From NCBI GenBank assembly GCA_030609365.1, contig JAUWCJ010000004.1, positions 1 through 60,878 of the forward strand: a stretch of DNA of 60,878 nucleotides, written 5' to 3'. Positions 3,156 to 56,763 of this stretch are shown here, in pieces. The position numbers and the translations under genes were made by a program. The notes below the pieces were generated by a model, which was not told the origin of the DNA, made no database searches, and worked only from the letters and a program-made list of their open reading frames with translations. This DNA comes from Candidatus Eiseniibacteriota bacterium (lineage in GTDB: Bacteria > Joyebacterota > Joyebacteria > Joyebacterales > Joyebacteraceae). Every line of letters starts with the position of its first letter. The first letter of the stretch is position 1.

Positions 3156-5615
3156 CTACTGCCGGAGCCCACCCAGCTCGCGTTCAAGAAACTCGATCAT
3201 GTGCTCGTCGTTCGTCAGTGACCGGGCCGTCTCGTACTCGTGAGTGGCCTCGGCCACCCTGCCCTGTTCAGCGAGGAGACGGGCGAGATTCGCGTGCGGT
3301 GACGCCAGCTTGGGTCTGACCGCGATCTCCTTCCGGAGTTCGTTCTCGGCCGCGCTCATGTTCCCCAGCGCGTAGTATGCCTCCGCAAGCCTCGTGTGCG
3401 CGTGACTGACAGACGTGCGTCCGGTCAGAGCGGCCTTGAGAACCGCTATGGCCTCCGTGTACATCTCGTTGGCCAGATAGACATCGGCCAGCCTCGAGAG
3501 TGCCGCGCTGTTTCGAGGGTCCGCGATGGTAGCAGCGACGAGGGCCTCGAGCTCGAGCTCCAGTTCGCCCAACTCCTGATAGATGATCGCCTTCGTGTAG
3601 TGCGCGTCCGCGTTTTCCCGGTCGAGTTCGAGCGCTCTCGTGAGTTCCTCCAGGGCCTGATCCGGCTCGCCCAAGAGCTTGTGGACCTGCGCCAGTCCGA
3701 CTCTGGCCGTCGCGTCATCCGGATTGAGGGCCTGGGCTCTCCTGAACGAGTTTGCGGCCTCCGTCAGCCGGTCCATTCGCATGTACGCGCTGCCCATGCT
3801 GACGTAGGCCTGCGCGTTCTCGGGGTCGAGCTCGCTCACCCGTTTGAAGGCCTCTACCGCGCCCTCGAAGTCCCCGCGTCTGAACCGTTCTATCCCGTCG
3901 CCGAGAAACTGCTGCTCCTCCGTCACGCTATCGCGGTCGAACATCTCGAACTCGCCGCTTCTCCTGGTGGTGCGTGAGAAGTCGGTGTCTGCGAGCCCCG
4001 CGGTGAGAACGGGGGCCCCTGCGCCGCCCATTGCGAACCCGACGATCAGTGAGATCGTGGCGAGCGCGGAGAGCGCGGCGGGTATCTTCCGCTCCGCCAG
4101 CTTCAGCACGGCAGCGGCTCCTGCCAAGCCCACGGCGGCACCGATCCAGGCCAGCGCCGGCTGACGCAGGATCGCCGCCGGGAGAAGGGAGGCTAGGATG
4201 ATCCCGAGCGCAGCGACGGAGCGCGCCCTCTTCGCTCCGAGCACGTCTCTCAGGTTCCAGCGCCGGCTGTCTGCCTCATCGGCAGTCTCCCATACGTCCC
4301 GCGCGAGGAACGCGAGCGCGGGGGTGAAGAGGCACGCGAGAACGGCGCCCTTCGGGAGCCAGAGCGACGCAGAGCCTCCTGCGTACGCCGCGAAACCGAG
4401 CGTCACGGAGAACAGTGTCACCGCACCGATCGCCAGTCCGGCGAGAGGCGTGAACCGCACGAGCCTCAGCGGGCGGGCGTAGTAGAAGTAGTAAACGGCC
4501 ATCATTGACAGCACGTAGGTCATCGCCACGTAGCTCACAGACAGCGCAAACAGGAGGGCGAACATGCAGGAGAAGGTACAGAGCATCAGAAGAGCGTTCC
4601 TGTCACTGCCGGCGGCTTGCCGGCCCTCGCCGTGCAGCTCTCTCAAGCCGGAGGCCGTGAGCGCCGTGAAGAACGACGCGGCCAGCAGCCCGGCTATCGA
4701 GATGACGTCGAACGGGTGGGTGATCGCCGGGAGATTCCCGGACCCCATAATGAGTCTGGCGCCCAGCAGCAGACCCGCGGACGTCGTGAGCACGTGGAAC
4801 GCCGCCGTAACGGGATCGGTCACCTTCCGCAGGGAAGCGGATCTGTCGGGGGTGTACATCCGGTACCAGATGGCTAGGAATGGCGCCAGCACGAACAGGT
4901 CGATCAGCGAATTGGAAAGGTCCGAGACCGCGAACGGCGTGGCGTTCGCGAACGCCCTGTGCACGCTGGCCCGGGCGAAGAGCAGCTGGTATACGTTCTC
5001 GACGTCGCCACCGAAGAGGCGACTCAGTTCCACGGTGATAACCGGCAGCGTGAAGAAGAAGAACATCGTCACGTAGATGCCGAAGAACGAGAGGACCGCC
5101 CTGCCGAGGCTTCGGGTCTTCAGGTGCACGTAGAAGGCGCCCAGCAGGCATCCGAGCGCCGCCTCGATCCTGATACCGGCGGTGGCGCCCTGGAACTGCT
5201 GGTAGGTCGGGTTGAAGAGATTGAGAAACGCCCCGGCGAGAGTGCCACTCTGCGGGATGAGGTAGCCGATGAGTTCGGGTCCTTCGCCCGCCCTCGACAG
5301 GAGGATGTCAATGAGCGGCGGCAGGAGCGTCAGAAGCCAGGCGAACAGCATCAGCTTGGTTACTCGCTCGACTCGCTCGCGCGCGAACGCGGCAAGGACC
5401 ACCGACAGGGCGATCAGAGGAGTGACGTAGGCCAGCGGGTAGTGGAGGAAGTACGAGAGGAAGTACAGGGTCTTCTGTTGCCCGGAGAGTTGCTCCAGGA
5501 AGTGTCTGAGGACGATGATGGCACCCAGGATCAGCAGCCACCGGCCCAGCGTGATGTGACTTCCCTCGACCGCCTCTGAGGCGCGCAGCACTCTCTGTCT
5601 GACTCCCTGACTCAT
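3156..5615 (-). CDS. Large polytopic membrane protein with C-terminal TPR domain
   Basis: 819 residues. The start ATG at 5615 is chosen because GAGGTGG lies just upstream and the first hydrophobic helix begins ~25 residues in; the upstream in-frame extension to 5927 is low-complexity and overlaps the next gene. Residues ~25-540 hold a dozen or more hydrophobic helices. A stretch around YYFYYARPLRLVRFTP faintly recalls the second half of UbiA-type prenyltransferases, but the Asp-rich motifs are missing. Residues ~560-819 form about seven TPR repeats (e.g. GAVEAFKRVSELDPENAQAY). I do not recognise the family. The layout suggests a membrane-anchored assembly scaffold, with the TPR domain on one face. 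Confidence 0.75.
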   Translation of the reverse strand: MSQGVRQRVLRASEAVEGSHITLGRWLLILGAIIVLRHFLEQLSGQQKTLYFLSYFLHYPLAYVTPLIALSVVLAAFARERVERVTKLMLFAWLLTLLPPLIDILLSRAGEGPELIGYLIPQSGTLAGAFLNLFNPTYQQFQGATAGIRIEAALGCLLGAFYVHLKTRSLGRAVLSFFGIYVTMFFFFTLPVITVELSRLFGGDVENVYQLLFARASVHRAFANATPFAVSDLSNSLIDLFVLAPFLAIWYRMYTPDRSASLRKVTDPVTAAFHVLTTSAGLLLGARLIMGSGNLPAITHPFDVISIAGLLAASFFTALTASGLRELHGEGRQAAGSDRNALLMLCTFSCMFALLFALSVSYVAMTYVLSMMAVYYFYYARPLRLVRFTPLAGLAIGAVTLFSVTLGFAAYAGGSASLWLPKGAVLACLFTPALAFLARDVWETADEADSRRWNLRDVLGAKRARSVAALGIILASLLPAAILRQPALAWIGAAVGLAGAAAVLKLAERKIPAALSALATISLIVGFAMGGAGAPVLTAGLADTDFSRTTRRSGEFEMFDRDSVTEEQQFLGDGIERFRRGDFEGAVEAFKRVSELDPENAQAYVSMGSAYMRMDRLTEAANSFRRAQALNPDDATARVGLAQVHKLLGEPDQALEELTRALELDRENADAHYTKAIIYQELGELELELEALVAATIADPRNSAALSRLADVYLANEMYTEAIAVLKAALTGRTSVSHAHTRLAEAYYALGNMSAAENELRKEIAVRPKLASPHANLARLLAEQGRVAEATHEYETARSLTNDEHMIEFLERELGGLRQ

Positions 5616-6025: not shown

Positions 6026-6204
6026 CAGCCGGGTGAGGAAGTTAGCCTGCTTCGGCCCCAGAACCCATTGTCAGTTGAAGGAGATCCTGGCTTCCGAGAG
6101 CTTCAGGAGACCCCGATACCGCTCCAACAAGAGAAAGGGGGACACAAAGAGACGCCTCCGTTAGACTGCGTGTCGTCCAAAACCCGCAGAAGAAAGAGGT
6201 GCTC

Positions 6205-52638: not shown

Positions 52639-54468
52639 ATGTGTGGAATCATCGGGTGTGTTACCAGTGCCAGGGACGTCGTCCCGGTCCTCATGGAGGG
52701 CCTGAGGCGTGTGGAGTATCGCGGATACGACTCGGCCGGCATCGCGGTCGTGGGCGAGGGTAGCCTGGGCGTCAGGAAGGCGGAGGGGAAGATAGACGAG
52801 CTGGCCGGTCTTCTGGAGCGGAGTCCGGTGACCGGATCGACCGGCATCGCGCACACGCGCTGGGCGACCCACGGCGAGCCCTCCGAGGTGAACGCTCACC
52901 CTCAGACAGACGCGAGCGGTCGGCTGGCCGTCGTGCACAACGGCATCGTCGAGAATTACCGTTCCCTACGCAGATCGCTCGAGGAGGACGGCCACGTCTT
53001 CAGTTCGGAGACCGACACGGAGGTCCTGGCGCACCTCATCGGCACCTACTACGAGAGTAATCTCGAGGCGGCCGTGCGCGCGGCCCTCTCGAGAGTGCGC
53101 GGGGCGTACGGCATAGCCGTGATCCACGCGGACGAACCGGGCGTCCTGGTCGGCGCGCGAAACGGCAGCCCGCTCGTGCTCGGTATTGGTAAGGGAACGT
53201 ACTACGTTGCCTCGGACGTCGCCGCTATCGTCAGGCACACGAGGGACGTCGTCTATCTCGACGATCTGGAAGTCGTCGTGGCAACGCCGGAGGGTTTCTC
53301 GACGACGACGCTCGAGGACGAGCTGGTGACCAAGGACGTTGAGAAGGTCACCTGGAACATCGATACCATAGAGAAGAACGGGTTCCCCCATTTCATGCTG
53401 AAGGAGATCTTCGAGCAGGAGAGAACCGTTCAGGATGCGGTTCGGGGGCGCCTGGTGGAAGCCGCGGGAGACGCCTTTCTGGGCGGGCTTCGCGAACACC
53501 GCCGCAGTCTGGTCGCGGCGAACCGCATCATCATCATTGCGTGTGGGACGTCCTGGCACGCCGGGCTCATCGGCGAGTACATGCTCGAGGACGTCGCCCG
53601 GGTCTCGGCGGAGGTCGAGTACGCCTCGGAGTTCCGCTACAGGAACCCCGTCATCGGCCCAGGCGACGTGGTGATCGTTCTGAGCCAGTCCGGTGAGACC
53701 ATCGATACGCTGGCGGCGATGAACGAGGCGCAGCGCAGAGGCGCGATCGTGCTCGGGGTCGTCAACGTCGTCGGATCGACCATAGCCCGGCAGAGCGACG
53801 GAGGCGTCTACACGCACGCCGGACTCGAGATAGGAGTGGCCTCGACGAAGGCGTTCACCTCGCAGCTGATGGTCCTGGCCGCCGTGGCGCTGACCATCGG
53901 CCGGGCGCGAAGCGTGTCTGTCACCGAGGGACGGGAGATAGTCCGTGCGATGCGGGCGATACCAGGTCAGATTCGAGAGATACTCGCTGGGAGCGAGGCC
54001 ATCAGAGAGATAGCCTTGACCTACGCGAAGCACTCGAATTTCCTCTACCTCGGCCGCGGGTACAACTTCCCCGTTGCTCTCGAGGGCGCGCTCAAGCTCA
54101 AGGAAATATCCTACATCCACGCGGAGGGCTATCCCGCCGCGGAGATGAAGCACGGTCCCATCGCACTGATAGACGAGAGCATGCCCGTTGTCGTCATCGC
54201 TCCCCAGGACGTCTTCTACGAGAAGATCCTCTCGAACATGCAGGAGGTGAAGGCCCGCGGCGGGAGGATTCTGGCCATCACGTCACAGGGTGACGACCAG
54301 GTGAAGAACATGGCGGACGACGTCATCGAGATTCCCAGAACCCTGCCGCACCTGACTCCGATCCTGTCGGTGATCCCGCTGCAGCTTCTCGCGTACCACA
54401 TTGCCGTCGAGCGTGGCTGTGACGTCGACCAGCCGAGGAACCTCGCGAAGAGCGTGACGGTGGAGTGA
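52639..54468 (+). CDS. glmS: Glutamine--fructose-6-phosphate aminotransferase
   Basis: 609 residues, exact family length. N-terminal Cys nucleophile MCGIIGCV, then the glutaminase core (RRVEYRGYDSAGIAV, HTRWATHGEPSEVNAHP), two SIS isomerase domains (IIACGTSWHAGLIGEYMLE; LSQSGETIDTLAAM; GRGYNFPVALEGALKLKEISYIHAEGYPAAEMKHGPIALI) and the C-terminal LLAYHIAVERGCDVDQPRNLAKSVTVE. It makes glucosamine-6-phosphate for cell wall and LPS. It begins 2 bp after the mutase stop. No glmS ribozyme is present, the leader being coding. Confidence 0.97.
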   Translation: MCGIIGCVTSARDVVPVLMEGLRRVEYRGYDSAGIAVVGEGSLGVRKAEGKIDELAGLLERSPVTGSTGIAHTRWATHGEPSEVNAHPQTDASGRLAVVHNGIVENYRSLRRSLEEDGHVFSSETDTEVLAHLIGTYYESNLEAAVRAALSRVRGAYGIAVIHADEPGVLVGARNGSPLVLGIGKGTYYVASDVAAIVRHTRDVVYLDDLEVVVATPEGFSTTTLEDELVTKDVEKVTWNIDTIEKNGFPHFMLKEIFEQERTVQDAVRGRLVEAAGDAFLGGLREHRRSLVAANRIIIIACGTSWHAGLIGEYMLEDVARVSAEVEYASEFRYRNPVIGPGDVVIVLSQSGETIDTLAAMNEAQRRGAIVLGVVNVVGSTIARQSDGGVYTHAGLEIGVASTKAFTSQLMVLAAVALTIGRARSVSVTEGREIVRAMRAIPGQIREILAGSEAIREIALTYAKHSNFLYLGRGYNFPVALEGALKLKEISYIHAEGYPAAEMKHGPIALIDESMPVVVIAPQDVFYEKILSNMQEVKARGGRILAITSQGDDQVKNMADDVIEIPRTLPHLTPILSVIPLQLLAYHIAVERGCDVDQPRNLAKSVTVE

Positions 54469-54545
54469 CGCCGCAAGGACGGGCCGCGGCATGTCCGCGC
54501 CGGTGAAGGCGGGCGACGAGCCCGGGTCAATCACGGAGACTGCTC

Positions 54546-55592
54546 TTGTCCAAGGAAGAGATCTACAGGCTGACGCAGAAGGTGCGCTGCTCCGGCTGAG
54601 CGTCGAAACTGGGTCCGGAGGATCTGGCTAGCGTGCTGTCGAAGCTTCCGCCTGTCGTCGACCCGCGGGCGATGGTCTCGTCCGGTACCGTCGACGATGC
54701 CGGTGTGTACCGCCTGAGCGACGACACGGCGCTCGTGGTCACGCTGGATTTCTTCACGCCCGTCGTGGATGACGCGCGGGACTACGGGCGTATCGCAGCC
54801 GCGAACTCGCTCTCAGACGTTTATGCGATGGGAGGAACTCCGCTCGTCGCTCTCAATATCGTCTGTTTCCCGGACGGAGAGCTTCCGATGCCGGTGATGA
54901 CGGAGATACTCCTGGGAAGCAACGAGAAGGTCGTGGAGGCCGGCGCTCTGGTGCTGGGCGGTCATTCGGTCAGCGACCGTGAGCTCAAGTTCGGACTGGC
55001 GGTAGTGGGCACGGTGAACCCCGGGCGGGTCGTGTCGAACGCCAACGCCCGCGTCGGGGACGTGCTGGTACTGACGAAACCGATCGGAGTCGGCGTGCTC
55101 GCCACCGCGCTCAAGGAGGACGAGCTGCCTCCCGAGGGCGTCGCGATCATCACCGAGCTCATGGCCACACTGAACAGGGCGGCTTCTGAGGCGATGCTCG
55201 AGGCCGGGGCGACGGCCGCGACCGACGTCACGGGATTCGGCCTGGTCGGACACGCCAGCGAGCTGGCGGACGCGAGCGGCGTGACGCTCGAGATCGCCGT
55301 CCTTGACGTGCCGCTCGTCGAGGGTGCCAGGCAGGCCATCGAGAGAGGGCTGGCGCCGGGAGGTCTGTTCTCGAACCAGCACTACTACAGCACGTTTGTC
55401 GAGTCCCGGACTCGGGCCGACGGGCGCACGGTGGAACTGATGTATGACCCGCAGACCTCGGGCGGGCTTCTGGTCGCTCTTCCCGAGGGCAGCTACAGCG
55501 CGTTCGATCGTGCGCTGAGCGCGAGAGGTGGTAGTAGCCGGGTCATCGGACGTGTTGTGGACAGAGCGGATCGCGCAGTGATCCTGACGTAG
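54546..55592 (+). CDS. selD: Selenide, water dikinase with selenocysteine at residue 18 (in-frame UGA)
   Basis: 348 residues from TTG 54546 (GGAG seven bases upstream), reading through TGA 54597-54599. The N-terminus is SKEEIYRLTQKVRCSG-U-ASKLGPEDLASVL: the SelD catalytic Cys/Sec site followed by the catalytic lysine and GPEDL. Downstream: VTLDFFTPVVDDARDYGRIAAANSLSDVYAMGGTPLVALNIVCFP, LVLGGHSVSD, TDVTGFGLVGHASELA and YDPQTSGGLL, all SelD blocks. Conventional calling would begin at GTG 54633 and lose the active site. A SECIS-like hairpin lies 10 nt after the UGA. It makes selenophosphate from selenide and ATP. Confidence 0.93.
54609..54627 (+). promoter_or_regulatory. Bacterial SECIS-like hairpin in selD
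   Basis: 5' arm CTGGGTC (54609-54615), loop CGGAG, 3' arm GATCTGG (54621-54627): seven pairs, three of them G-T. The apical loop starts 17 nt after the UGA and has a G in its first two bases, matching the published bacterial SECIS constraints. Folding has been done by eye. Confidence 0.6.
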
Positions 55593-55645
55593 GCGGGCCG
55601 AAGCTTGGGCTCGCCCATAGGATGCGTCCGGCAGCGAATTCGCGT

Positions 55646-55743
55646 GGGGATGGATAGGTCCTGGTGGGCCTCGAGGGCTTCAAACCCTTTGTCTGGCGGC
55701 TGATCCCGTCCGGGGTGGGTTCGATTCCCACACATTCCCGCCA
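55646..55743 (+). tRNA. selC: tRNA-Sec (anticodon TCA)
   Basis: 98 nt including an encoded CCA (55741-55743) with discriminator G. Acceptor arm 55646-55653 pairs with 55732-55739 (seven good pairs, one a G-T, then G-A). The D arm has the Sec-specific long 6-bp stem and four-base loop (56-61 with 66-71, loop TGGT, last two digits). The anticodon loop is CT-TCA-AA (anticodon 55680-55682) on a 5-bp stem. A long variable arm (93-96, 97-99 with 106-108, 110-113) follows, then a perfect T arm GTGGG-TTCGATT-CCCAC. It decodes the UGA in selD. Confidence 0.95.
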
Positions 55744-55791: not shown

Positions 55792-56763
55792 ATGCGAGCT
55801 CTTGTGCTTCTGTCCGGCGGGCTTGACAGTATCCTGGCGGTGCGCCTTCTGCAGGAGCAGGGCATCGAGGTGATCGGTATCAGCTTCGTGTCCTCGTTCT
55901 TCGATGCCGAGAAGGCCGAGAAGAGCGCCCAGGAGGCGGGCATCGAACTTGTGGTGATCGACATCAGCGAGGACATACTCCGGCTGATCGAGGCTCCCAA
56001 GTACGGGTTCGGGAGGAACATGAACCCGTGCATCGACTGTCACGCTCTCATGGTCGGGCGCGCGGCCGAGCGCATGAAGGAACTGGGAGCGTCGTTCATC
56101 GCCACCGGCGAGGTGGTCGGCCAGCGGCCGAAGTCCCAGATGCGTTACGGCCTCGAGGCCGTCGAACGGGAGGCGAATATCAAGGGGTACCTGCTCCGCC
56201 CGCTCTCCGCGAAGCTGCTTCAACCGACGATCCCGGAGACTGAGGGGTGGGTCGATCGAGAGAAACTGCTTGGGCTGCACGGACGGACGAGGAAGCCACA
56301 GATGGGGCTGGCGGAACGCTTCGGCGTCAAGGAATACGAGTCGCCTGCCGGAGGGTGTCTTCTCACTGACGAGAACTTCGCCCGGGCCATGCGCGACCTC
56401 AAGGATCACGAGGGGCTGAGCGACCCCGGGGTCAGGCTTCTTTCGATCGGCAGGCAGTTCAGGTTGTCCGATCGGGCCAAGCTCGCCGTCGGGCGGAACC
56501 ACGCTGAGAACGAGAGATTGTTCTCGCTCGGTCTGCCGCATGCGCTCTACGTCAAGGCGATCGGATGCAGGGGCCCCGTGGGTGTCATCACCGGTGCGCC
56601 CTTGCCTGCGGACGAGCAGCTTGCGGGTGGGGTGGTTGCGAGGTACGCTGATACGGGTGAAGCCGAGAGCATCACCGTTGAGATCAGGAGCGACGCCGGG
56701 GCGCGCACGGTGGAGGTCGTGCCTCTGACGTCGAGGGAAGTCAGGGGGCTGGCGGTCAAGTGA
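55792..56763 (+). CDS. PP-loop ATPase, ThiI/MnmA-like, linked to the selenium cluster
   Basis: 323 residues. N-terminal PP-loop RALVLLSGGLDSILAVRLL, then NPCIDCHALMVGRAAERMKELGASFIATGEVVGQRPKSQM, and a late cysteine motif ESPAGGCLLTD. The last ~140 residues recall the NFACT-R-type C-terminus of a family often annotated tRNA thiolation-like. PP-loops with Cys pairs usually adenylate an RNA or protein for thiolation or selenation. Its position 48 bp after tRNA-Sec and near SelD suggests sulfur/selenium tRNA chemistry, but the substrate is unknown. Confidence 0.78.
   Translation: MRALVLLSGGLDSILAVRLLQEQGIEVIGISFVSSFFDAEKAEKSAQEAGIELVVIDISEDILRLIEAPKYGFGRNMNPCIDCHALMVGRAAERMKELGASFIATGEVVGQRPKSQMRYGLEAVEREANIKGYLLRPLSAKLLQPTIPETEGWVDREKLLGLHGRTRKPQMGLAERFGVKEYESPAGGCLLTDENFARAMRDLKDHEGLSDPGVRLLSIGRQFRLSDRAKLAVGRNHAENERLFSLGLPHALYVKAIGCRGPVGVITGAPLPADEQLAGGVVARYADTGEAESITVEIRSDAGARTVEVVPLTSREVRGLAVK

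Follow-up and report, generated by a model that had tools for sequence, protein, structure and literature searches.

A predicted selenocysteine codon in selD beside a tRNA-Sec gene in a Candidatus Eiseniibacteriota bacterium

In a 60,878-nt stretch of a Candidatus Eiseniibacteriota genome (the window), we found a selD gene with an in-frame TGA at the active-site codon, followed by a tRNA-Sec gene (selC). From sequence comparison, the two are predicted, with a probability of about 0.95, to be a functional, selenium-dependent pair of a bacterium that decodes UGA as selenocysteine (Sec). SelD with Sec, a SECIS element and an adjacent selC is a standard and well-known arrangement. What is new is the lineage, as far as a limited literature search goes (it returned no earlier mention of selenocysteine in this little-studied seep lineage), and the co-occurrence with a NifS-SelD fusion that contains Cys. 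In a named-genome search the closest SelD relatives are 87 to 92% identical and come mostly from MAGs labelled Candidatus Eisenbacteria; one SelD with 65% identity is from a MAG labelled Candidatus Effluviviaceae.

The selD gene (54546 to 55592, forward strand) has a TTG start at 54546 and a TAG stop at 55590. Translated with TGA as U, its 349 codons give a 348-residue protein that matches the profile TIGR00476 over the full length with 369 bits (cut-off 125) and NF002098 with 318 bits. The 349-codon read-through gene is unambiguously SelD. The product aligns almost end to end with the SelD proteins of E. coli (PDB 3u0o) and Aquifex (2yye). U18 and K21 fall on C17 and K20 of the E. coli protein, which we take to be the catalytic Cys and the following Lys. 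The TGA (54597 to 54599, forward strand; context CSG-U-ASKLG) had been placed exactly at the SelD active site by the original prediction, and the alignment of U18 with the catalytic Cys of solved structures bears this out. E. coli SelD differs in having Cys and no UGA, and the second Cys of its CxC is Ser in the window protein. Aquifex aeolicus SPS (PDB 2yye/2zod) is likewise a single-domain bacterial SelD, with RSSGCAAKVGP where the window has RCSGUASKLGP; there is no difference of substance and only the lineage is new. The native Aquifex enzyme carries Sec at the catalytic position. The window SelD is predicted to make selenophosphate from selenide and ATP.

The TGA is not peculiar to the window. 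A codon-by-codon comparison with separately assembled genomes of the same bacterial family found TGA at the Sec site in all 18 distinct loci, and one Zixibacteriota locus has it at the same place. A SelD profile search of 61 genomes found one TGA within SelD in almost every full-length match, and Sec-SelD is therefore the rule in the comparison set. This holds for the family and for the majority of the set's genomes that use Sec. Cys occupies the equivalent site in 3u0o and in a second SelD of the same genome.

The start codon and Shine-Dalgarno sequence proposed for selD are both supported by comparison. An NTG codon stands at the position of TTG 54546 in 14 of the 18 family loci (six TTG, seven GTG and one ATG) and the other four have an NTG nearby. 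The Shine-Dalgarno GGAG (54535 to 54538, forward strand), 7 nt 5' of the TTG, is kept in 17 of the 18.

A hairpin just downstream of the UGA had also been predicted. It is present at 54609 to 54627 (forward strand) and has 8 bp and a GGA triloop. Its core GGUCC-GGA-GGACC (54612 to 54624) pairs 54612-54616 with 54620-54624, and 17 nt separate the UGA from the loop. All 18 family loci can form the five pairs of the core, the single G-U variant being that of the window itself. Over the entire gene, just five degenerate codons show no variation among the 18 loci, and the codons GGT CCG GAG of this segment are three of them. The mean synonymous difference is 0.45 across the gene, 0 at these three codons and 17/153 at the next GAC. 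Taken alone, the window hairpin is unremarkable: its stability does not exceed that of synonymously resampled sequences (p = 0.54), and among all TGAs of the window, 2.7% have an equally placed 8-bp hairpin downstream and 41% have one of at least 5 bp. The SECIS case therefore rests on conservation. On that evidence, a conserved SECIS-like hairpin at 54609 to 54627 is supported.

In the bacterial SECIS model the hairpin lies 16 to 37 nt downstream and has a G in the first two loop positions (PMC13188914). The window hairpin fits this consensus in loop size, G position and spacing; by itself it misses the −7.5 kcal/mol criterion and reaches it only when flanking bases are folded in. A strict hairpin-only energy filter was discarded as non-discriminating, since only 5 of the 19 loci satisfied it, as did 7.7% of all TGAs. 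The minimum free energy structure of a wider segment, with pairs across the UGA, was also rejected as a conserved element because its pairs break in relatives (54593-54617 in 6 of 18 and 54591-54619 in two). The Zixibacteriota locus, whose SelD is 50% identical to that of the window, carries a hairpin of another sequence at the corresponding position, GGCCAAA-GUU-UUUGGCC; its loop also starts with G, and the resampling p value is 0.03.

The tRNA-Sec gene (55646 to 55743, forward strand; anticodon TCA; encoded CCA at 55741 to 55743) begins after a gap of 53 bp from the selD stop, as predicted. It was called by ARAGORN and by Rfam RF01852 (69.1 bits, gathering score 47), and it adjoins selD across the family loci. 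At its eighth acceptor pair, all the family members shown have G facing A. This pair was dropped as a tRNA oddity; some distant tRNA-Sec genes of the set have the same.

On the 5' side of selD lies an ORF named glmS from sequence resemblance (52639 to 54468, forward strand), and the glmS C-terminus precedes selD in the family loci of sufficient length. On the 3' side, the product of 55792 to 56763 (forward strand) is a PP-loop ATPase (MnmA/ThiI-like) with an NFACT-R_2 RNA-binding domain; PF03054, PF02568 and PF18297 all score above cut-off. An ORF with the SGGLDS motif stands immediately 3' of tRNA-Sec in 19 of the 20 loci read, some of these loci being duplicate entries for a genome present in two collections. 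A search of the genome for the selenouridine synthase YbbB found none. Since the ATPase is kept beside tRNA-Sec and YbbB is absent, it may act in the modification of a tRNA with sulfur or selenium.

SelB and SelA were both expected elsewhere in the genome, and only half of this was borne out in the assembly. SelB is encoded on another contig (C162; 367 bits, cut-off 242) and has its winged-helix domains. The genome search found no SelA in this 97%-complete assembly. The same search found SelA in five of five congeners (in one of them as a partial gene at the edge of a contig), as well as in 12 of 14 other family members. In congener G004, selA is flanked by a surA-like gene on one side and by smc (a name given by sequence resemblance) on the other, and a multi-copy element lies next to it. 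Contig C35 of the window's genome stops at base 4848 within the surA-like gene, and contig C148 stops at base 6117 just upstream of smc. Because the contigs break at the locus where the congeners have selA, and all five congeners have the gene, we infer that selA of this species most likely falls in a gap of the assembly, for which the repeated element is a plausible cause. A multi-copy coding element resembling the one next to selA in G004 (matches 68 to 85% identical) is found in the window's genome on contigs C115, C2, C77, C20, C38, C134, C82, C97 and C173. Several copies lie at the ends of contigs, where they probably cause the assembly to break. With SelB, tRNA-Sec, the conserved TGA and the conserved SECIS-like hairpin in agreement, decoding of UGA as Sec in this organism, as originally proposed, is very well supported at the sequence level.

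Other readings of the gene were weighed against this one. Standard ORF calling starts selD at GTG 54633 and yields exactly 319 aa in place of 348, the 29-residue truncation that had been foreseen. Were this the true start, the 29 upstream codons would be untranslated and the TGA would be the stop of a short upstream frame. We regard this as extremely unlikely, as those codons encode the conserved SelD N-terminus (LTQ...SG-U-xxK) of the PDB SelDs and of all family loci, the Shine-Dalgarno and NTG start are conserved upstream of them, and a start at 54633 would delete the catalytic residue together with the conserved Lys close to it. The relatives retain the TGA; a SelD starting at 54633 without Cys or Sec at the site was not what they showed. 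The chance that the TGA arose by sequencing error or by codon decay in a pseudogene, the true residue being Cys, is close to nil: although TGA is one base away from TGC and TGT, it recurs in 18 of 18 family loci from separate assemblies, and most of the distant relatives that use Sec have it as well. Apart from this codon the frame is intact, with coding periodicity on both sides of the UGA and a third-position GC of 0.83 upstream and 0.80 downstream. An in-frame UGA within a conserved gene is also the minimal observation expected if UGA simply encoded a standard amino acid such as Trp or Gly. This has a similarly negligible probability, given that a complete tRNA-Sec adjoins selD, SelB is present, UGA is the stop codon of glmS (54466 to 54468) and of other genes read here, and the residue occupies the site of Cys or Sec in other SelDs.

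The lack of SelA in the 97%-complete assembly, together with the presence of a Cys-containing SelD, could instead mean that SelA is truly lost. Sec-tRNA would then no longer be made, selD, selB and selC would be relics, and selenophosphate would come from the NifS-SelD fusion. We consider this very unlikely: contigs break off on either side of the place where the congeners carry selA, selD, selB and selC are intact, and congener G001 retains the fusion and selA together. The preferred reading remains that of a working Sec-decoding system with selA in the gap.

Additional UGA-containing genes had been suggested as a check. SelB was found and SelA was absent from the assembly, as described above. 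The genome search covered five often-Sec families (about 110 selenoprotein families are known): molybdopterin/FDH, FlpD, HesB, AhpC/TSA and CMD/AhpD were either absent or had no in-frame TGA. Sec users without FdhA were all reported to have Sec-SelD (Zhang et al., 2006; PMC1794560), and the result from the five families fits this pattern. The genome also encodes, on contig C147 (L082:3159-6917, forward strand), a 1253-aa fused flavoprotein/iron-sulfur/molybdopterin-like protein that resembles the formate dehydrogenase alpha subunit; by eye, it has no Cys or Sec at the usual position.

The SelD profile search also matched a gene on contig C68 of the window's genome (L092:313-2532, forward strand), which encodes a second SelD. 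This 739-aa protein has a NifS-type cysteine desulfurase at the N-terminus and SelD at the C-terminus. The N-terminal part scores 465 bits with TIGR03402, below its cut-off of 531. The SelD part scores 393 bits, is 51% identical to the window SelD and has the active site GLGCACKLRP, i.e., Cys. The fusion is also found in G001, G012, G020 and G049 and is apparently split into two frames in G016. Its distribution within the family is patchy (the window's own genome, G001, G012 and the apparently broken G016), G020 and G049 being distant genomes. The majority of relatives have Sec-SelD alone. In 2008 such a fusion was reported only in Geobacter sp. FRC-32, with Sec in a CxxU motif (PMC2398784). 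Like the Geobacter protein, the fusion described here joins cysteine desulfurase and SelD in one chain; unlike it, it has a Cys active site (GLGCACK) and coexists with a separate Sec-SelD. Because the genome encodes this second, Cys-containing SelD, the window SelD is not the sole likely route to selenophosphate.

The proposed mechanism is as follows. The ribosome would initiate at TTG 54546 and arrive at the UGA at 54597. SelB bound to the hairpin would bring Sec-tRNA-Sec, which SerRS and SelA would make from the tRNA transcribed from 55646 to 55743. We infer that translation then continues past the UGA to give the 348-residue SelD with Sec as the catalytic residue. This SelD would make selenophosphate, which SelA would use for more Sec-tRNA. 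Since SelA needs the selenophosphate of SelD to make Sec-tRNA, SelD would depend on its own product. The fusion of Cys-SelD and cysteine desulfurase could start or back up the loop by supplying selenophosphate before any Sec-SelD is made. A more specific version, a two-step relay in which the Cys NifS-SelD makes selenophosphate from lyase-released selenium and primes the Sec-SelD, SelD being maybe the main or only selenoprotein, is speculative and we consider it rather unlikely. If true, the relay would break the circular dependence of Sec-SelD on its own product.

The gene model of selD is corrected by this work, as automatic annotation would cut the gene short and lose the catalytic residue. 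The predicted Sec-SelD would add a little-studied seep lineage of uncultured bacteria to those that use the selenocysteine code. A Sec-SelD and a Cys-containing NifS-SelD encoded in one genome would provide a natural test of escape from the circular need for selenophosphate.
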